From Pseudomonadota bacterium (GTDB lineage: Bacteria > Pseudomonadota > Gammaproteobacteria > Burkholderiales > Burkholderiaceae_C), in assembly GCA_018241185.1 (NCBI GenBank), contig JAFEEH010000032.1, positions 1 to 34,385 on the forward strand: a stretch of 34,385 nt of DNA, given 5' to 3'. Below the pieces are notes generated by a model, which did not search any database, was not told where the DNA came from, and worked only from the letters and a program-made list of their open reading frames with translations. Positions within the stretch are counted from its first letter, which is position 1; each line of letters opens with the position of its first letter. Both the position numbers and the translations under genes were made by a program. Shown in pieces: positions 1 to 7,974 of this stretch.

Positions 1-156
1 CTCGATGCGGTTGGTGCCGCGGCCCGGGTTGTCGATGACGGTGCGGTTGTCGGCCGACGCGGGCGCCGCGCCGAGCAGGCCGCCCAGCGCGGCCAGCGCC
101 AGGCCCGCGAACGAGGCACGGCGCACGGGGCGAGGGAAAGGCGAGGTTCGTGGCAT
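1..156 (-). CDS. Small secreted protein of fibre operon, partial (C-terminus beyond window)
   Basis: The first 52 codons are visible and run off the left edge without a stop. The reading starts MPRTSPFPRPVRRASF, continues with an Ala/Leu/Gly hydrophobic stretch and a likely signal-peptidase site after APASA, and leaves a mature N-terminus DNRTVIDNPGRGTNRIE, which is rich in Asn, Arg and Gly. The start lies 10 bases after the stop of the Sel1-repeat gene on the same strand, so it is probably the sixth gene of the fibre operon. I do not recognise the family. By position it could be a minor fibre subunit or an HfaA-like anchor component, but that is inference from the CsgG/HfaB-like neighbour only. 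Confidence 0.65.
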   Translation of the reverse strand, partial: MPRTSPFPRPVRRASFAGLALAALGGLLGAAPASADNRTVIDNPGRGTNRIE

Positions 157-166
157 GGAAGGCTCC

Positions 167-1096
167 TCAGGGCGTGCTGCGCGGCGTCAGGCTCTCCTGC
201 CCCGGCAGGCCACCCAGCGGGGACGCCGCAGCGGGTGCGGGCGGCGCGCTCTGCGCCTGCACCGCGCCCATGCCGGGCAGGCGCGAGATGTTCGCGCCGC
301 CGCCCGGTGCGGGTCCGCCGGCCGGCGCGGGCACCATGGCCGGGCTGCCGGCAGAAGCCGTGCCCGGCGCGGCGCCCTGCTGGCTGCGCAGCTTGGTTTC
401 GAGTTCGCTGGCGAATCGGTCCGCCAGCACAACTTCCTCGGCCGCCATTTCGTTGCCGAGGCTGTTGATGGTGTCGGTCGCCTGCTTGGCGCTGGCGCTG
501 CCCGGCACGGCCAGGCGCTGCGCGAGCCGCGCATAGCCCAGGGCCTTGATGTTGTCCTGCGGCGCGCCGCGCCCGCTCTTGTACAGCTCGCTCAGGCGCT
601 GCATCGCACGCGGGTCGCCGCGCACCGCACCCAGCAGGTACCAGCGGTAGGCCTGACCGATGTCGGACACGCCGCTGCGGTTGCTCTGGTAGGCATCGCC
701 GAGCAGCGTGAGCAGGTTGGGGTTGTTGGTGCGCAGCGCGTCTTCCTTGAGCCGCGCGATCTCGTTCGCATACAGCGGCCCCTGACAGCCCGGGTTGACC
801 ACGCCGCGTTCGATGGCCTGCTGGCAGGACTCGACATAGCGCGCGCCGGTGTCGCCGCCCGGCGCCGCGGTGGCGCCCGCCGGTGTGATCGGCGTCGCGG
901 CCGCCGAGGACGGCGCGCCGGTGCCGCCGACGGTGACGGTCGCGCGCGCAGCGGCCGAAGGTGCTGCAGCCCCCGTGCTGGCCGCGGCCTGCGCCCAGGC
1001 GCTCGGTGGGCTCAGCGCCCAGCCCGCGACCGCCAGCGCGGCCGCGCATGCGCGAAGTGGCGTGCGCCAGTGATGCGACACATGAACTCTCGGCAT
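167..1096 (-). CDS. Secreted Sel1-repeat protein, low-complexity tails
   Basis: This encodes 309 aa. An N-terminal signal peptide ends near PPSAWAQ. An Ala/Pro/Thr/Gly-rich linker follows, then a helical segment at about residues 95-200 with Sel1-type features (LLGDAYQSNRSGVSDIGQAY, then GDPRAMQRLSELYKSGRGAPQ). The C-terminal tail of about 80 residues is rich in Pro, Gly and Ala. The start was placed at 1096 because its ATG shares one base with the TGA of the CsgG-like gene (TGATG), so translation is probably coupled. Sel1 repeats are protein-protein interaction modules. In this operon the protein could be a periplasmic assembly or chaperone partner of the secretion channel, in the place occupied by CsgE/CsgF in curli systems, but I see no resemblance to those proteins. 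The exact role is unknown. Confidence 0.75.
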   Translation of the reverse strand: MPRVHVSHHWRTPLRACAAALAVAGWALSPPSAWAQAAASTGAAAPSAAARATVTVGGTGAPSSAAATPITPAGATAAPGGDTGARYVESCQQAIERGVVNPGCQGPLYANEIARLKEDALRTNNPNLLTLLGDAYQSNRSGVSDIGQAYRWYLLGAVRGDPRAMQRLSELYKSGRGAPQDNIKALGYARLAQRLAVPGSASAKQATDTINSLGNEMAAEEVVLADRFASELETKLRSQQGAAPGTASAGSPAMVPAPAGGPAPGGGANISRLPGMGAVQAQSAPPAPAAASPLGGLPGQESLTPRSTP

Positions 1097-2274
1097 CAGG
1101 TGCCCACCTTCGCGGGCGCTGCTGGCGTGCCCGGAGCGACCGGCGCGGCCGTGCCCGCGGTCTGCGGCGGCGGATCCCACGGCATCGGCACGCCGAAGAA
1201 CAGCGGCTCGAAGCCCTTCCAGCTCAGCACGTCGACCGTGTCGCCCAGCTGCGGATAGCGCGTGGAATACACGCGGCGCAGCGCCTCCTTGGTCGGCTCG
1301 TCAAGCTGCTGGTTGACGGTGACGTTCTCGCCGTACTTGCGCAGCATGACCTGGATCAGGCCGACCTTGAGCTGCGGCGAGAGGCCCTCGAAGGAGCGCT
1401 GCATGTTCTCGACCACCACCGGGTCGGGCACGCCGTTGGGGATGCACCGCCAGTACGGCGTGTTGGTCGCCTTGCCCATCAGCTCGAGCACGCTCAGGTC
1501 GACCAGCGTGCGGATGGCCGAATGGCGGCCCTGCAGGTACTTGCCCTCCAGCTTGAAGCCGAAGGAGTCGCCGTAGAAGCCCAGGCTCGCGTTGTCCTCG
1601 GCGCTGAAGTTCAGCACCTTGATCACGTTGGAGGCCTGGATGCGCGGCACCATCTGCTGGGTGCTGAAGCTCACCAGGTTGAGGTCGAGCGCGAGCGCCG
1701 AGAGGATGGCGGTGCGCTTGAAGTCGGCGCCGATGTTGGTCTCGCCCTTGCCCTTGCCGAAGTCGACGCTGGCCGAGTTGGAGCGGCCCGCGCCCGAGAG
1801 CGCGCGGTCGAACTCGGTGAGCGCGCCGGTGATCAGGAAGTCGGGCATGGTCACGCCGAACTTCGCGCCCAGCTGCGCCTGCGAGATCAGGTAGTCGGGG
1901 TGGTAGGGCACGTACACGATGCGCGCGCCGATGCGGTTGACGGCCGTGCGGACCATCTCGGTGATGTCGCCCGGGATCTCCGAGCCCACCAGCGGGTTCG
2001 ACAAGTTGGTCGCGTCGAGGATGTTGCGCGTCTGCATGTAGACCACCGGGTCGCCATCCTTGTAGATGTCGAGCATGTGGCCGAAGCGCCCGAGCGAGAC
2101 GGCGTAGCTGCTGAGGTTGGCCGTGGGCAGCTGCTTGGCGGCCTCGCGTTCGGCCAGCAGCTTGTCGGCGTCGCTCAGGGCGTTCTGGGTGGTGGCGCAG
2201 CCGGCCAGGAGGGTGGCCGCGGCGGCCAGGGCGAGCGCCCCGCGCCGCACGCGTGAAGAGGTGTGCGATGTCAT
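1096..2274 (-). CDS. CsgG/HfaB-family outer-membrane lipoprotein (fibre secretion channel)
   Basis: This encodes 392 aa. A lipobox (L23-A-G-C26) marks an outer-membrane lipoprotein. The body has the CsgG-like order: an alpha/beta periplasmic domain (EIPGDITEMVRTAVNRIGAR near residue 100), a FLITGALTEFD strand, a Gly/Ser/Lys-rich segment that would be a barrel hairpin, a LALDLNLVSFSTQQ strand, and the closing helix LVDLSVLELMGKATNTPYWRC. CsgG forms an ungated nonameric pore that exports curli subunits, and HfaB is the Caulobacter relative that exports holdfast-anchor proteins. About 100 residues follow the CsgG-like part, ending in a Pro/Ala-rich tail; this extension is unusual. The ATG has no strong Shine-Dalgarno. 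The 88 bases before it hold no gene. Its neighbours are all secreted repeat or small proteins, which fits a dedicated exporter. Confidence 0.75.
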   Translation of the reverse strand: MTSHTSSRVRRGALALAAAATLLAGCATTQNALSDADKLLAEREAAKQLPTANLSSYAVSLGRFGHMLDIYKDGDPVVYMQTRNILDATNLSNPLVGSEIPGDITEMVRTAVNRIGARIVYVPYHPDYLISQAQLGAKFGVTMPDFLITGALTEFDRALSGAGRSNSASVDFGKGKGETNIGADFKRTAILSALALDLNLVSFSTQQMVPRIQASNVIKVLNFSAEDNASLGFYGDSFGFKLEGKYLQGRHSAIRTLVDLSVLELMGKATNTPYWRCIPNGVPDPVVVENMQRSFEGLSPQLKVGLIQVMLRKYGENVTVNQQLDEPTKEALRRVYSTRYPQLGDTVDVLSWKGFEPLFFGVPMPWDPPPQTAGTAAPVAPGTPAAPAKVGT

Positions 2275-2362: not shown

Positions 2363-2782
2363 TCACTTGCCGTTGTTCAGGACCGTGATGTTCTCCACCC
2401 CCTTGCCGTCGACGAACAGCGTCACGTTGCCACTCACGTTGCCCTGAATGGTCGGGCTCGCAATGCGCAGCTGGCCGTCGGCCCCCTGCGACACGTTGCT
2501 GTAGTCGGTGCGGATGACCAGGTTGGTCTGGTTGGCCGGCAGCTTGAGCGTGCCGTCCGGCTGCACCAGCGCCTGCTGGTCCACCACCTTGTTCTGCTCG
2601 AGGGCGCGCGCCACGCGCGCGCGGGCCGTCACGCCCGGGGTCACGCCGTCGATGAGCTTGACGCCCGCGTCCTTGTTGTCCCTGTAGGCCCCGAGGGCCT
2701 CACCGTAGTTGATGAGCTGGGCCGATGCCGCACCCGACGCGAGCAGCGCCAGTGCACCGATGAGGTGTGTCGTCTTGTTCAT
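2363..2782 (-). CDS. Small secreted protein of fibre operon (possible nucleator or minor subunit)
   Basis: This encodes 139 aa, with a signal peptide ending at GAASAQ. The ATG at 2782 is chosen because GGAAGGAG sits about 7 bases upstream and it gives a clean signal peptide; an earlier in-frame start would add 12 charged residues. The mature part begins LINYGEALGAYRDNKDAG and has a middle segment of alternating polar and hydrophobic residues. It ends in an Asn/Gly/Val-rich beta-type region (IQGNVSGNVTLFVDG, then ENITVLNNGK). The final VTVLN/ITVLNN motif resembles the last residues of the 1166-aa neighbour (VTVLNM), which may be a shared export or anchoring tail (inference). I do not recognise a family. 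It lies 32 bases downstream of the giant repeat gene and upstream of the channel gene. Confidence 0.75.
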   Translation of the reverse strand: MNKTTHLIGALALLASGAASAQLINYGEALGAYRDNKDAGVKLIDGVTPGVTARARVARALEQNKVVDQQALVQPDGTLKLPANQTNLVIRTDYSNVSQGADGQLRIASPTIQGNVSGNVTLFVDGKGVENITVLNNGK

Positions 2783-2814
2783 GATTCGCTCCTTCCGCGC
2801 GGCCTCGGCCGTCC

Positions 2815-5800
2815 TCACATGTTCAGCACCGTCACGGCCGGTCCGACCGTCACGCTGCGGTTGACCACGCCGGTCGACGGCAGCGTCACGGTGTAGCCCG
2901 CGTTCGCTGCCCAGGGCGTGTTGCCCGTCACCCCGGCTACCCCGGCCAACGCGCCACCCGTGGTGCGCACGCTGCCCGTGGTCATGCCGACGCCGGCCGT
3001 GGACTGGTTGCCCACGATGGCCACCGTGCCGGTGATGACGCCGCGGTTGATGACGGAGTTGCTCGTGCCGCCCGCCATCGCCGAACCGCGGTTGCCCGCG
3101 ATCACGATGTTGCCGGCCATGAGGCCGTGGTTGACGACGGAGTTGACCGTCCCGCCTTGTAGGCTGGAACCTTGGTTGCCCATGATGGCCACGCGGCCCG
3201 TGAGCGTGCCGCGGTTGTCGACGCTGTTCACCGTGCCGCCGCCGCGCGCCTCGCCCCGGTTGCCGATGATCGCGATGTTGGCGCTCATGAGGTTGCCGCT
3301 GCCACGGTTGTGCACGCTGTTGACCATGCCGCCGCCGCGCGCCGACCCGGTGTTGCCCGCGATGGTGATGCTGCCGGCGCCGATGCGGCCCTGGTTGATC
3401 ACGCTGTTGACGGTGCCACCGCCCTGCGTCGTGCCCTGGTTGCCCAGCACCGTGATCTGCCCGCCGGCGATGGTGCCGCCGTTGACCACGCTGTTGGCCA
3501 CCCCGCCGCCCTGCACGCTGCCGCGGTTGCCCAGGATGGCGATGCGGCTGCTGCCGACGGTTCCGCTGTTGTCCACCGAGTTGAGGGTGCCCTTGTGCGC
3601 GCTGCCCTGGTTGCCGGTGATCGCCACCTGCGAGCCGGCGATGCGGCCATTGCTGCGGTTGCGCAGGCTGGCGGCGCTCGCGTCCTCGCCGTCGGCTTGC
3701 GCGCCACTGCGCTGGTTGCCGGTGATGGCCACCTGCGAGCCGCTGGTGCGGCCCTCGTTGAAGAAGCTGTTGGCCACGGCCGTCTTGCCGTCGCGCGTGC
3801 TCACATCGTTGGCGGTGTTGCCGCTGAGGGTGGTCGGCGTGCCCTCGGTCGTGGCACCTTCACCGACCATCACGCTGTTGGCCAGCGCGACGCCCTTCTC
3901 GGCCAACACGTTGTCGGCGGTGTTGCCCAGCAATTGCATGCTGCTGGCGCGCAGGGCGCCGAGCACCTGCACCGCGTTGGCGCTGGCGGCCCCCACGCCC
4001 TTGCCCATGACGGCGTGGCCGGCGATCGTGCCTTCCTTGCCTTCGCTCTTGACGTTGCTGGCACGGTTGTCCGCCAGCGTGACCGGGCTGCCCTGCACGT
4101 CGCCCTGGCCGTTGACCGCCAGCGCGTTGGCGTTGATGCGACCGCCGTCTGCGTTGAGCGCCTGTGCGCGGTTGCCCCGCACCGTGACCGGCGAACCCGA
4201 CACGCGCACGCCGTTCTCGCCCTCGAGGTACACGCCGTTGGCCACGAGGATGCCGTTCTTCGCATCGCCGATGCCCGCGACCTGGCCGTAGCTGCCGCCG
4301 GTGCGCACGTCGCTGGCTGTGTTGTCGGTGATCGTCACCGGGCTCCCGGAAAGGCTCGCGTCGCGGTAGCCCGCCAGGGCGTTGACCAATGCCGTGCCGC
4401 CGATGGCGGCCACCTGCGTGGCGCGGTTGTCGCGCAGCGTGAGGGCCGAGCCGCTGTCGACCCGCGTGTTCTCGTACAGCACGACCGCGTTGGTGGCAGC
4501 GCGCGCCACGCTGCGTTCGCTGAAGGCGTTGCCCGGGCCGGCCATGGAACTGGCACCGGTGGACACCTGGGAGGCCGTGTTGCCGGACAGCTGCGTGGTG
4601 GCCGACAGGCGCGAGCCGGCGCCCTCACCCTTCTCGACGCTCACGCTGTTGGCGACCAGCTTGCCACCCTGCGCCGACAGCTCGCGCGCGGCGTTGTCGC
4701 GCAGGCTCACGCTGCCCGCGTCGACGGTGGAGCCGAACACGCCCAGGCTGTTGGCCAGCGCCATCGCGTTCTGCTTCGACGAGAAGAGCAGGCCGCCCGC
4801 GGCGCTGCCCGAGAAGCCGTTGGCACGCACGTTCTCGGCCGTGTTGCCAGCGAGGTCGAGGCGCCCGTTGCGCACCGTGCCTTCGCTCACCAGCGCGCTG
4901 TTGGCGGCTGCGAGGCCGCCCGAGCCCTGCACGCCGCGTGCCGTGTTGTTGCTGAGCGTGACCGGCGTGTTGTCCAGCGTGGCCTGGCTGTCCAGCGCCA
5001 CGCTGTTGGCCAGCGCGCGGCCGTTGCGCTCGAACTCGCCGACGAAGCCGCCGCCGACGGTGGCGCGCCCGCCGGCCGTGTCGACATCGGTGGCGCGGTT
5101 GTCGGTCAGCGTGATGTTGCTGCTGCGGGTGGTCGCGCTCTGCAGCCAGATGCTGTTGGCCGCGGCCGCGCCGCCCACCGCCTGCACCTGGTCGGCCTGG
5201 TTGCCCGACAGCGTGTGGCGCGTGGCGCCCTGCAGTTGCCCGCCCTGCACCGAAATGCTGTTCGCCAGTGCCGCGGCCGACATCTGCACGTCGGCCAGCG
5301 CGCCCTTGAGGATGGAACCGCTGCCGCCGCTGGCTTCGACGCGGCCGGCCTTGTTGTTCGACAGCTGCGCCTGGTACTGGCGCAGGTCGCCGCCCTGGTA
5401 ATCGGCGAAGTTCACGGTGTTGGCCAGCGCGCTGCCGCCCAGGGCATTCATGCCGTCGACCTCGTTGCCCTGCTGCGTGATGCGCGCGCCCTTGAGCTGG
5501 CTGCCGGCCGCGGTGACCGCATTGGCCGCAGCGACGCCGGTGAGGTCGGCCTGGGCGACCGCGCCCCAGCCCGCACCGCCCGATCCGCCGCCGGCGCGCA
5601 CGTTGCGCGCCGTGTTGCGCACCTGTTGCGTCTGCAGGTCCTCGACCTGGCTGCGGGCGAGCGTGGCGCCGTTGGCGATGGCCGCGCCGCCGAGCGAGGC
5701 GATGCCCTCGGCGGTGTTGTTCATGACGTCGATGCGCGCACGGCGCACGTCGGTTTCGTCGCTGAGCAGGCCGTTGGCCGTGGCGCGGCCCGGCAGTTGC

Positions 5801-6315
5801 AGCGAGCCGGCGCCGAGCAGCACGGAGGCCTTGGCCCCGTGCGCCTCGATGCGCCCGGCCTGGTTGTTCTGGATGTTGACGACGCTGTCCGTGAGCGGGC
5901 GGCGGCCCGCGCCGCCGGAGATGAGCGCCGTGTTGGCCGTGGCCGCACCGCCGATGGCGGTGACGAAGCCGGTGACCTGGTTCTGCAGCACGTTGAGCTG
6001 CGAATTGCTCACGTCGAGTGCGGACAGGCCCACGGTGTTGGCCTGTGCCGTCGCGATGAGGTCGACCGAGGCGCCCAGCCCCGCGCCCACCGTGGCCTTG
6101 CCGCCGCCGGCCGTCACCTCGGCGTTCGCCTTGTTGCCGGTCGCGCGCGCGGCGCTGTTGCCCTTGAGCTCGGTGCCGGGGCGCTGCGTGACCCAGCCCA
6201 GACCGTGCAGCACGCTCTCCTGCGCACCCGCAGGCGGCGCCATGAGCAGCGAACTGCCACCGCACAGCGCGGCGATGAGGACAACGATGTTCTTTCGTCG
6301 AAGGGAGGGGGTCAC
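2815..6315 (-). CDS. Giant secreted beta-solenoid-like repeat protein (putative fibre or adhesin)
   Basis: This encodes 1166 aa from a GTG start with GGAG at 6322-6325. The signal peptide ends around PPAGAQ. Almost all the rest is repeats. From about residue 50 to 800, long units (about 48-51 aa) alternate with short units (about 34-38 aa), roughly nine pairs. Each unit opens with a strand and turn such as VTLSNNTA or ITDNTA, then V-x-A-x-GG, then A-x-ANSV. From about residue 840 the repeats shrink to about nine units of 28-31 aa (IAILGNRGS, then GGG-x-x-NSV-x-N-x-G). The protein ends VGPAVTVLNM. Regular Asn/Gly/Ser turns and short beta-strands fit a beta-helix or amyloid-like fold on the cell surface. 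Export by the CsgG-like lipoprotein of the same operon is inferred. It has no recognised enzymatic domain and almost no Cys. Base composition is like its neighbours. Confidence 0.8.
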   Translation of the reverse strand: MTPSLRRKNIVVLIAALCGGSSLLMAPPAGAQESVLHGLGWVTQRPGTELKGNSAARATGNKANAEVTAGGGKATVGAGLGASVDLIATAQANTVGLSALDVSNSQLNVLQNQVTGFVTAIGGAATANTALISGGAGRRPLTDSVVNIQNNQAGRIEAHGAKASVLLGAGSLQLPGRATANGLLSDETDVRRARIDVMNNTAEGIASLGGAAIANGATLARSQVEDLQTQQVRNTARNVRAGGGSGGAGWGAVAQADLTGVAAANAVTAAGSQLKGARITQQGNEVDGMNALGGSALANTVNFADYQGGDLRQYQAQLSNNKAGRVEASGGSGSILKGALADVQMSAAALANSISVQGGQLQGATRHTLSGNQADQVQAVGGAAAANSIWLQSATTRSSNITLTDNRATDVDTAGGRATVGGGFVGEFERNGRALANSVALDSQATLDNTPVTLSNNTARGVQGSGGLAAANSALVSEGTVRNGRLDLAGNTAENVRANGFSGSAAGGLLFSSKQNAMALANSLGVFGSTVDAGSVSLRDNAARELSAQGGKLVANSVSVEKGEGAGSRLSATTQLSGNTASQVSTGASSMAGPGNAFSERSVARAATNAVVLYENTRVDSGSALTLRDNRATQVAAIGGTALVNALAGYRDASLSGSPVTITDNTASDVRTGGSYGQVAGIGDAKNGILVANGVYLEGENGVRVSGSPVTVRGNRAQALNADGGRINANALAVNGQGDVQGSPVTLADNRASNVKSEGKEGTIAGHAVMGKGVGAASANAVQVLGALRASSMQLLGNTADNVLAEKGVALANSVMVGEGATTEGTPTTLSGNTANDVSTRDGKTAVANSFFNEGRTSGSQVAITGNQRSGAQADGEDASAASLRNRSNGRIAGSQVAITGNQGSAHKGTLNSVDNSGTVGSSRIAILGNRGSVQGGGVANSVVNGGTIAGGQITVLGNQGTTQGGGTVNSVINQGRIGAGSITIAGNTGSARGGGMVNSVHNRGSGNLMSANIAIIGNRGEARGGGTVNSVDNRGTLTGRVAIMGNQGSSLQGGTVNSVVNHGLMAGNIVIAGNRGSAMAGGTSNSVINRGVITGTVAIVGNQSTAGVGMTTGSVRTTGGALAGVAGVTGNTPWAANAGYTVTLPSTGVVNRSVTVGPAVTVLNM

Positions 6316-6367
6316 AGCGGTCTCCGTGGGTCAGGACGGGCGGCGAGGCTCACCGCGTCCACAGCGG

Positions 6368-6388
6368 CCGGCGCGCTCGCGGCGCCGG
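6368..6388 (-). promoter_or_regulatory. GC-only hairpin between small and giant fibre genes
   Basis: Arms CCGGCGC (6368-6374) and GCGCCGG (6382-6388) pair perfectly around a 7-base loop, inside the 128-bp gap that separates the 122-aa gene from the 1166-aa gene. There is no T-tract, so it is not a classic terminator. It could slow RNA decay of, or partly attenuate, transcription beyond the first gene, giving more of the small subunit than of the giant one. That role is inference; the surrounding sequence is so GC-rich that chance stems are expected. Confidence 0.35.
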
Positions 6389-6443
6389 TCCCGGTCGAAG
6401 CGCGCGGCCACGCGGGAGGCGGGCCGCCGCAGGCCGGGGGCGC

Positions 6444-6812
6444 TCAGTTGATGTTGACGCTGTTGACGTTGGCGGTGCCGCCGATGGCCTTGACGTTGGT
6501 CGCCTCGTTGCCGCTGATCGTGATGTCGCTGTCCTTGACCTTGGAGCCGGTGATGTTCACCGTGTTGACGTTGGCCATGCCGGTCATGCTGACGTTGGCG
6601 CCCACCTTCAGCACGCCGGCTTCGCCGCCCCCGGCCAGCACATCGCGCGCCTTGTTGTTGCTCACCGTGATGCGGGTGTTGGTCACTTCCGAGCCCAGCG
6701 AGCCGTTGGCCTTGCCGACGCCCGGGATGCTGATGGCTCCGCTTTGCGCGAAGGCGGCGCTCGAGAAAGCGGCGACGAGCGCAACGGCGCCGGCTGCAAC
6801 GATTTTCTTCAT
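6444..6812 (-). CDS. Small secreted fibre subunit with one long plus one short repeat
   Basis: This encodes 122 aa. The signal peptide MKKIVAAGAVALVAAFSS ends at AFA|Q23. AGGAG lies about 7 bases before the ATG. After a linker (SGAISIPGVGKANGSLGSE) there is one long unit beginning ITVSNNKARDV and one short unit beginning ITISGNEATNV and ending GGTANVNSVNIN. These match, residue class by residue class, the long/short pair that is repeated about nine times in the 1166-aa protein encoded next. It is the first gene of the operon. By analogy with curlin it could be the main fibre monomer, with the giant protein a covalently linked tandem version. It has no Cys and no catalytic motif. Function is inferred from repeat similarity and operon position. 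Confidence 0.8.
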   Translation of the reverse strand: MKKIVAAGAVALVAAFSSAAFAQSGAISIPGVGKANGSLGSEVTNTRITVSNNKARDVLAGGGEAGVLKVGANVSMTGMANVNTVNITGSKVKDSDITISGNEATNVKAIGGTANVNSVNIN

Positions 6813-7314
6813 GTGTTCACTCCTGGTAGTGCGAAAGATGGAAGGTGTTGAAGCGCGGTCCGGTGCGGACCACGGAGCGCAATCTACCGATGCAAAGTGA
6901 CAGGCCCTGTCTTATTTGTAAGTCGCTGTTGAGGTCACGCCTTCTTACGAAATCGTGCGTGCATTGAAGGGATGTGTGAAATTTCTCGCACTTCTTGATG
7001 CACACCTCGGAACTTTCAGCGAGCGCTCACACATGGTTTTCGAGCCTTTTAAGACCTCGCTATTAATAGGAAGGTCTGCAGTTGCAGCGCGATGAACAGC
7101 GCGTGTGGGAGCAATCTCACAACGCGACGCCCACAAGCGCTGTCAAGCCCATTCGTCGCACATGCAACCGGACGCAAGGCTTCACGCAGCGCGTATCGAA
7201 ACATCGATTCACAAACGCGCCGCTTCGCTGGCGCTTCCTGTCGGACGGGTCTGACAAGGTGCACGCACTCACTCGCAGACACTCGGGACCCTCCAAGCCA
7301 CGACCACGCACTTC
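6813..7314. promoter_or_regulatory. 502-bp divergent regulatory region between fibre operon and lipoprotein gene
   Basis: No convincing gene is present; short open frames here lack ribosome-binding sites and family features. From about 6890 to 7080 it is more AT-rich than the surrounding DNA. It holds an 8-bp inverted pair ATGTGTGA (6972-6979) / TCACACAT (7027-7034), an 8-bp palindrome GAGCGCTC (7021-7028), and the larger palindrome listed separately at 7052-7077. Both the leftward fibre operon and the rightward lipoprotein gene must be transcribed from here. I could not identify a convincing -35/-10 pair for either. Confidence 0.6.
7052..7077. promoter_or_regulatory. 26-bp imperfect palindrome, candidate operator
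   Basis: Outer arms AGACCT (7052-7057) and AGGTCT (7072-7077) are concentric with an inner perfect 10-bp palindrome CTATTAATAG (7060-7069). Only two base pairs out of 13 fail to match. It lies about 240 bp upstream of the first fibre gene and about the same distance from the lipoprotein gene. The size and AT-rich centre fit a dimeric regulator site, but no regulator gene is adjacent. Confidence 0.45.
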
Positions 7315-7974
7315 ATGCGCTTCAACACCCGCTTCTCCGCCCCTGTTTTCTCGTCGCGAATCGCACGCACGGCCGCCCTGCTTGCGGCCGGTGTGGTCGG
7401 CGCCGTGGTGCTCTCGGCCTGCAAGGACGGCACCGGCCATGGCACTGCCAACGGCATCCGCTTCCCGGACGACGCGCAGATCACGCAGGCGCTGCAGGCG
7501 AACTTCGGCGACGACCCGAACAACGCCAAGGCGCGCGAATTGATCCAGGTGCTGGGCGGCGAGAAGGGCCAGCTCGACTACAAGATCCGCCGCGTGATCT
7601 GGCGCCAGGGCGCCTTCGAGGCCCAGTACGACGTGAGCCTGAAGATGGGCCAGCCCGGTGCCGTGAGCCTGCAGAAGCTCTACGCCACGATGGTGCCGAA
7701 GAACGAGGCAGCCAAGCTGCCCGAGCAGACGCTGCAGGCCTACGAGGACTGGCTCAAGAACAATGCCGCCACGCTCGAGAAGAGCAACCCGCAGCAGGCA
7801 CAGGCGCTGCGCGCCAGCCTCGAGAGCCTGGGCACCTGCTACCGCGAGGCCAAGCCCGACGACCGCATCGCGCTGATGAACGGGCTGGGCGCGCTGATCT
7901 CGCCCGCGCGTGAAGGCTGGTATGCCGACCGGCTCCAGTCGCCCAGCGTGGAGTTGCGCTGCCTGCCGCTGTAA
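7315..7974 (+). CDS. Predicted lipoprotein of unknown function
   Basis: This encodes 219 aa. A signal peptide leads to the lipobox L33-S-A-C36, so the mature protein is probably lipid-anchored. The mature part is soluble-looking and mostly helical: a segment starting IRFPDDAQITQALQANFGDD, a strand-rich piece (YKIRRVIWRQGAFEAQYDV), then a long helical region with two further Cys (in LGTCYRE and ELRCLPL) that could form a disulfide. I do not recognise the family. There is no obvious Shine-Dalgarno; the start is the first ATG in frame and gives the signal peptide. It is transcribed away from the fibre operon and shares its upstream region, so co-regulation is possible but unproven. It converges with the FAH-family gene, 19 bases away. 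Confidence 0.75.
   Translation: MRFNTRFSAPVFSSRIARTAALLAAGVVGAVVLSACKDGTGHGTANGIRFPDDAQITQALQANFGDDPNNAKARELIQVLGGEKGQLDYKIRRVIWRQGAFEAQYDVSLKMGQPGAVSLQKLYATMVPKNEAAKLPEQTLQAYEDWLKNNAATLEKSNPQQAQALRASLESLGTCYREAKPDDRIALMNGLGALISPAREGWYADRLQSPSVELRCLPL

Follow-up and report, generated by a model that had tools for sequence, protein, structure and literature searches.

The described systems closest to the locus studied here are curli and Hfa. Curlins are reported to span 4 to 62 repeats of about 23 amino acids (aa) and the subunits are modelled as beta-solenoids (PMC10192328), and CsgA in the csgBAC operons of Burkholderiaceae has 3-14 repeats (PMC12822426). The Hfa study states that HfaA multimers depend on HfaD, that HfaA and HfaD need HfaB for the outer membrane, and that the HfaAD density is extracellular (PMC6707917). 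Here we analyze an operon in a 34,385-nucleotide stretch of DNA from a Pseudomonadota bacterium (hereafter, the window), which makes up contig C195 in a genome of 5.34 Mb. The operon is read entirely from the minus strand, between position 6812 and the contig end at 1, and its genes encode, among others, a small secreted protein, a giant secreted repeat protein and a putative export channel. This gene set suggests an unusual way of building or anchoring a surface fibre.

Repeat unit shared by the small and giant proteins

Both open reading frames (ORFs) described in an earlier note on this DNA were confirmed on the minus strand: a 122-aa protein at 6444..6812 and an 1166-aa protein, with a GTG start, at 2815..6315. 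The repeat alignment that the note had set as a test of their kinship was significant, since the mature small protein matched the giant with at best 60.8 bits and an E-value of 2.8e-16 (blastp without composition correction), compared to at most 38.1 bits in 200 shuffled giants and 27.3 bits in the reversed giant. Ten placements of the small protein on the giant had E < 0.001, and an eleventh was printed as 0.001.

A profile of 23 small proteins (the window's and 22 of 30 rows) yielded nine near-full-length placements in the window giant, with 21.5-48.1 bits, at aa 47-131, 140-216, 220-302, 308-390, 395-475, 480-560, 566-646, 655-735 and 739-817. These nine long+short pairs occupy 3865..6177, each matching nearly the whole small-protein profile; a tenth placement was partial (4.5 bits), and nothing exceeded 0.4 bits beyond it. 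Across an alignment of 16 giants, the best small-profile domain scored 37.2-56.3 bits (median 47.9), against at most 3.0 bits in the 16 reversed giants and 5.9 bits in 160 shuffled ones. The 16 comprise the window giant and 15 of the 28 giants found (29 rows, one of which, L067, is the small protein itself); near-duplicates were left out, as were the truncated L060, L068, whose frame is broken, and L075 and L079, whose starts are mis-called, L079 also having an unread base. When the two families were compared with hhalign, a score of 97.9% was obtained (E 4.7e-13), and the reversed giant gave 0.2%. At the level of sequence, these values show the small protein to be one repeat pair of the giant: behind a signal peptide recognized by eye, it consists of one long and one short unit, as the earlier note had read it.

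The note's description of the giant as about nine pairs followed by compact units also agrees with our results. Cut by hand at the repeat motif, the units of the window giant are 45-51 aa (long) and 34-38 aa (short, with 45 aa in the first pair); after the pairs come units of 34 and 35 aa, then eight of 28-30 aa, the compact coils covering aa 896-1132 (2920..3630). In 13 of the 16 giants the pair region measures 770-775 aa and holds nine pairs, although one pair of L077 reaches only 6.4 bits. The giants of L061 and L062 have a pair region of 686 aa with eight full pairs (L061 has an 85-aa gap at aa 403-487), and that of L082 has 595 aa with seven pairs and gaps of 88 and 87 aa. In the alignment, giants thus differ by whole pairs, and the length of the region after the pairs varies between 271 and 360 aa. 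When single units of the window giant were searched against the 11 more distant giants, the unit at the aligned position was the first hit in 256 of 317 cases, so the array is an old one that has kept its order, not one in recent expansion.

A second small repeat protein begins at 1..141, where it is cut by the contig end; it probably resumes on contig C242 at 37-267, and complete relatives are found in L053 and L055. Its family is related to the first small family (98.0%), yet its relation to the giant is less clear (34.5%, E 4e-4; 17.4 bits by hmmsearch against at most 7.2 in controls). Its set excludes L067 and L068, which match the first small protein, and L069, L071 and L077, whose starts are mis-called.

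Predicted fold

The AlphaFold2 (AF2) model of the giant is a solenoid up to aa 1136, with loops every 82-90 aa. Structure models were the second test set in the earlier note, and those of the small and giant proteins present a common beta-solenoid strand pattern. The predicted fold of the giant superposes on solved parallel beta-helix structures, among them AlgE4, the Sf6 and HK620 tailspikes, Vag8, the EtpA secretion domain and PfbA, all of which we take to be right-handed; many of the matches are polysaccharide-acting enzymes and adhesins. No curli chain is among the structure matches listed for the giant model, which is no proof of absence, and searches of PDB sequences with the channel and the giant returned nothing relevant.

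The giant is thus predicted to form a single parallel beta-helix that runs without a break through about 28 coils. Its N-terminal two thirds are predicted to have a loop in every second coil and its C-terminal third to be smooth and compact, ending in a conserved tail (aa 1133-1166; 2818..2919). This tail has a mean column identity of 0.72, against 0.65 in the core, and appears unstructured in the model (predicted local distance difference test below 50). The small protein would correspond to two coils of the same helix. A two-coil beta-helix has both ends open and little core of its own.

The fold and the repeats bear on whether the fibre is a true curli-type amyloid, in which case the beta-helix model would reflect a preference of AlphaFold for solenoids and the fibre would be cross-beta. 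Repeats rich in Gly, Ala, Asn and Ser, the absence of Cys from the mature part of all 16 giants and 23 small proteins, and a CsgG-type channel in the operon are in line with this possibility, as is the fact that curli subunits are themselves modelled as beta-solenoids (see above). However, Pfam at E <= 1 returned nothing for the small protein and just ProQ (E 0.035) for the giant, and thus no curlin repeat. Profile comparisons with hhalign gave 0.2% and 0.3% for the small protein against E. coli CsgA and CsgB, and 0.4% for the giant against CsgA. The coils, of 28-51 aa, are also longer than the curlin repeat of about 23 aa. We therefore consider a curli-type amyloid quite improbable, and a kinship to curli finds no support in either the small and giant sequences or the beta-helix-like model of the giant.

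Distribution and conservation of the operon

One scan of genome contigs located the small gene at 27 loci. These are not all independent, as L056 and L057 are two records of Xenophilus strain E41, and many genomes of the genus and family sets (15 and 399 genomes) are the same organisms. The small proteins of L056 and L057 are identical to that of the window, which places its host close to Xenophilus. The named loci belong to Comamonadaceae (three genera were looked up and the remaining ones are presumed to belong there), and one record is a Pseudomonadota metagenome-assembled genome.

The giant adjoins the small gene in 26 of the 26 loci where the sequence continues (L067 ends there; in L068 the giant is in two frames). 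The gene for a 151-aa protein and the channel gene come next in 25 of 25 testable loci. All 23 testable loci have a Sel1-repeat protein (in two frames in L077), a lipoprotein of 199 aa and the second small protein. Of these 23, 20 also have an OmpA-type protein, and the sequence of the remaining three stops close to that position. In the family set, 21 of 399 genomes match, of which 20 carry the small ORF; in all 20 the same contig also has a frame that stays open for 1012-1382 aa and gives repeat matches, and the twenty-first (86% complete) has one weak match. Within the genus the operon occurs in 14 of 15 genomes (G004 lacks it), and four of 399 genomes match in the order sample. Given these counts, the operon is patchy across the family, but whole where present. 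In Variovorax sp. E3 (L068 7268-11347), both the giant and the 151-aa gene are split over two frames, which looks like breakage or an assembly error.

Between close relatives, the ratio of nonsynonymous to synonymous substitution rates (dN/dS) was 0.021 and 0.059 for the small protein and 0.118 and 0.133 for the giant, with two comparisons each. These values indicate that both genes are under purifying selection at this distance. At greater distance, dN/dS rises to 0.29-1.0 (small) and 0.45-0.65 (giant), which we attribute to dS being compressed by GC-rich codon use.

Outside Comamonadaceae, the genome G051 (locus L048), from another family of the same order, encodes a small protein of 107 aa (28.2 bits) and a partner of 148 aa (12.9 bits), together with a channel at 47% identity. 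A giant search in this genome matched just its small protein, and no giant was found. When the search covered 12 of the 18 genomes matching a CsgG-like relative in addition to G051, a giant was present in one of the 13, namely G541. Given that G051 has the small protein, the partner and the channel with no giant, the latter looks like an addition in Comamonadaceae, judged from few outgroups. The G051 channel has two further neighbours (L048 9563-10285 and 12317-13009), one a DUF2807 protein with a head GIN domain, the other of the OmpA family.

These results also bear on another explanation, in which the two proteins never assemble with each other and the small one is a paralogue that is shed or has a signalling or chaperone-like role. 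The strong purifying selection on the small protein (dN/dS 0.02-0.06 between close relatives) and its persistence in G051 with no giant are compatible with independent roles. Nevertheless, the two genes are strictly adjacent and co-occurring, and their products share one coil unit, so we regard independence as improbable.

An RNA hairpin between the small and giant genes was considered as a means of setting their ratio and was rejected: it was strong in two of six folded loci, L080 (8355-8468, z -5.5) and L062 (8367-8444, z -3.4), and the window had z -0.05.

Export channel and accessory proteins

Downstream of the giant, the 151-aa ORF (2363..2818) encodes a protein judged by eye to be secreted, with an uncertain start (an ATG lies at about 2782), and is followed by a 392-aa lipoprotein at 1096..2274, its lipobox also recognized by eye. 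The latter is a weak match to the HfaB hidden Markov model (17.5 bits, E 0.0018) and does not reach the NCBIfam cut-off of 300; it has no Pfam CsgG match, and against the single E. coli CsgG sequence it gave 17.7% (E 0.0014). When families were compared, however, hhalign scored the channel against HfaB at 97.5% (E 6.2e-12), and reversing the profile lowered this to 0.0%. The HfaB family in turn scored 97.6% against E. coli CsgG, and one of its members passes Pfam CsgG. These profile results show that the 392-aa protein belongs to the CsgG/HfaB superfamily, and it is probably an outer-membrane export channel. A curli-like export route is therefore reasonable. The C-terminus of the G051 channel (L048) presents a weak PG_binding_1 match (E 0.0041, below cut-off).

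The 151-aa protein, whose set excludes L068, is a conserved partner with no Pfam match and no relative found beyond G051. Identification as CsgE, CsgF or CsgC found no support (0.1%, 0.2% and 4.0% against single E. coli targets, which would reveal close homology only), and profile comparison gave no support for HfaA. None of the small, giant, 151-aa and channel proteins passes a Pfam or NCBIfam cut-off.

Distant CsgG-like proteins of 518-585 aa (L186-L190), from this family and other Proteobacteria, have small repeat proteins of various kinds and partners in their vicinity (95-169 aa), and some of these loci are near OmpA, DUF2807 or Sel1 types, as assigned by eye. When seven small proteins and seven partners from these wider relatives were tested, profile matches were obtained only at L048, with the 28.2 and 12.9 bits given above, against at most 7.8 and 7.7 bits in controls.

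After the channel comes a Sel1-repeat secreted protein (337-aa ORF, 167..1180), whose start is uncertain and which overlaps the channel gene; its Sel1 match (E 1.2e-4) is below the gathering score. On the plus strand, a divergently transcribed lipoprotein-type gene, so classified by eye (219 aa, 7315..7974), neighbours the operon at 26 of the 27 loci, and its Pfam search gave no match above cut-off. No sigma-70-like promoter was found in 6250-7330. On contig C242, where the operon probably continues, it is followed downstream by a 1618-aa ORF, of Rhs type by eye (L149 3359-8215).

Relation to HfaA and HfaD

The window's small and giant proteins have no match to NCBIfam HfaA or HfaD at E <= 1, and none above profile controls. 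For reference, HfaA and HfaD of L140, L141 and L143 score 91.5-142.4 and 170-366.2 bits. Repeat kinship between HfaA and HfaD themselves is weak by hmmsearch (12.0 bits against at most 3.4 in controls) and null by hhalign (3.6%). Uncorrected blastp matched the giant to a 1002-aa HfaD-type protein with E 3.9e-26. We take this as an effect of composition, because hhalign against two HfaD-type families gave 1.8% and 0.1% (reversed controls 0.1% each) and the small profile scored 4.2 and 2.3 bits in HfaD-type proteins, against 7.9 and 9.0 bits when shuffled. Since the second small profile was slightly above controls in the two families (8.1 and 8.2 bits against at most 3.0 and 4.4), the window repeats may still have a very old kinship to HfaD-type proteins. 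Two HfaB-type loci (L147 1970-6539 and L150 2576-6982) have repeat proteins of 1002 and 1029 aa, exceeding the 419-454-aa HfaD of L140, L141 and L143; the one in L147 has no NCBIfam HfaD match.

The same genome has a second CsgG/HfaB-type locus on contig C30 (L044 2742-4208). It encodes a small protein of 190 aa and a channel of the CsgG family with 189 bits to HfaB; this channel is present in four of the 15 genus genomes. In the relative L159 a 1619-aa repeat protein follows, and in L158 the gene for it reads as two ORFs of 482 and 1151 aa.

In the main competitor to the mechanism proposed below, the giant would be a stand-alone rod binding an adhesive polysaccharide or surface, the role proposed for HfaD at the holdfast, and the small proteins would cap or cross-link it instead of polymerising. 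It draws on the channel superfamily, on the HfaD-dependent HfaA multimers and extracellular HfaAD density cited above, on the two different small proteins per operon, and on the many polysaccharide-acting enzymes and adhesins among the beta-helix matches. Yet the small and giant proteins lack clear sequence kinship to HfaA and HfaD, and by eye no polysaccharide genes lie beside the operon in L045 and L047, although no search was aimed at them. All considered, we find an anchoring rod somewhat unlikely.

Proposed mechanism

Our leading explanation, held tentatively and at rather less than even confidence, is that this is a surface-fibre or adhesin operon of Comamonadaceae in which the giant seeds the fibre as a covalent scaffold and free small units lengthen it. 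It is favoured because of the unit identity, the strict adjacency and co-occurrence, the differences by whole pairs, the stable position of the units and the purifying selection, together with the AF2 solenoid, the beta-helix match, the lack of Cys, the channel homology and the open ends of a two-coil helix. The CsgG-like channel would take both proteins, still unfolded, across the outer membrane, and the giant would fold outside the cell as a ready-made rod. Its compact end and tail would stay at the cell, held by accessory proteins, and its loop-bearing N-terminal end would template the stacking of two-coil units; stacking is placed at this end because it has the loop-bearing shape of the small protein. 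Such a division, with a covalent scaffold to start the fibre and free units to extend it, would parallel CsgB/CsgA or HfaD/HfaA, with a beta-helix unit instead.

A more specific version, which we consider unlikely as a whole, makes the rod of about 28 coils both ruler and template: beta-helix cargo would leave through the CsgG-family channel, and units unable to fold alone would add coil by coil at the exposed N-terminal end, extending the anchor into a polymer as a continuous, non-amyloid beta-helix.

If the scaffold-and-unit mechanism is true, the starting and lengthening of a fibre, which are hard to separate in curli, would be split between two proteins of one fold, and the exact unit boundaries would make templated solenoid growth directly testable with two purified proteins. 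CsgG-type export would extend to beta-helix cargo, and a surface structure would be named in part of Comamonadaceae.

Comparison with known systems

The earlier note had proposed a monomer and a built-in multimer of it in one operon. The common repeat, the operon, the conserved pairing and the fold pattern bear this out, whereas its distinctness from known designs does not hold in full. Curli subunits are not always small, and a large subunit is not new in itself, given that curlins reach 62 repeats and CsgA of Burkholderiaceae 3-14. Nor is a small-plus-large design without precedent, since HfaA and HfaD, in the Hfa study cited above, already form a small and larger pair with a CsgG-type channel. 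What appears new is the exact identity of a free protein with the repeat pair found in another product of its operon, and a CsgG-type channel accompanied by cargo predicted to form a beta-helix. Among the titles and abstract openings listed by searches of open-licence papers, there was no case of either, and no such CsgG-type system in these genera.

The beta-helix proteins matched by the model (AlgE4, the tailspikes, Vag8, EtpA and PfbA) are enzymes, tailspikes and adhesins, or else passengers of type V systems. By Pfam, the giant has no autotransporter barrel, and no TpsB was found among five window operon proteins and three further ones from relatives. The second locus of this genome and its relatives (L044, L158 and L159) resemble the window operon in having a small protein and a CsgG-family channel, with a large repeat protein in L159, but differ in that no repeat sharing between small and giant is detectable by profile and there is no clear match to the window repeats. 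With Hfa, the operon shares a CsgG-superfamily channel accompanied by two repetitive secreted proteins, one small and one larger, yet its gene order and accessory genes are different and its channel is far below the HfaB cut-off. With curli, it shares a CsgG-superfamily lipoprotein channel, small secreted Cys-free repeat proteins and more than one subunit per operon. Unlike curli, it has no curlin repeat and no match to the single E. coli CsgC, CsgE and CsgF targets, its coils are longer and of another predicted fold, and its giant subunit is built from nine small-protein units.

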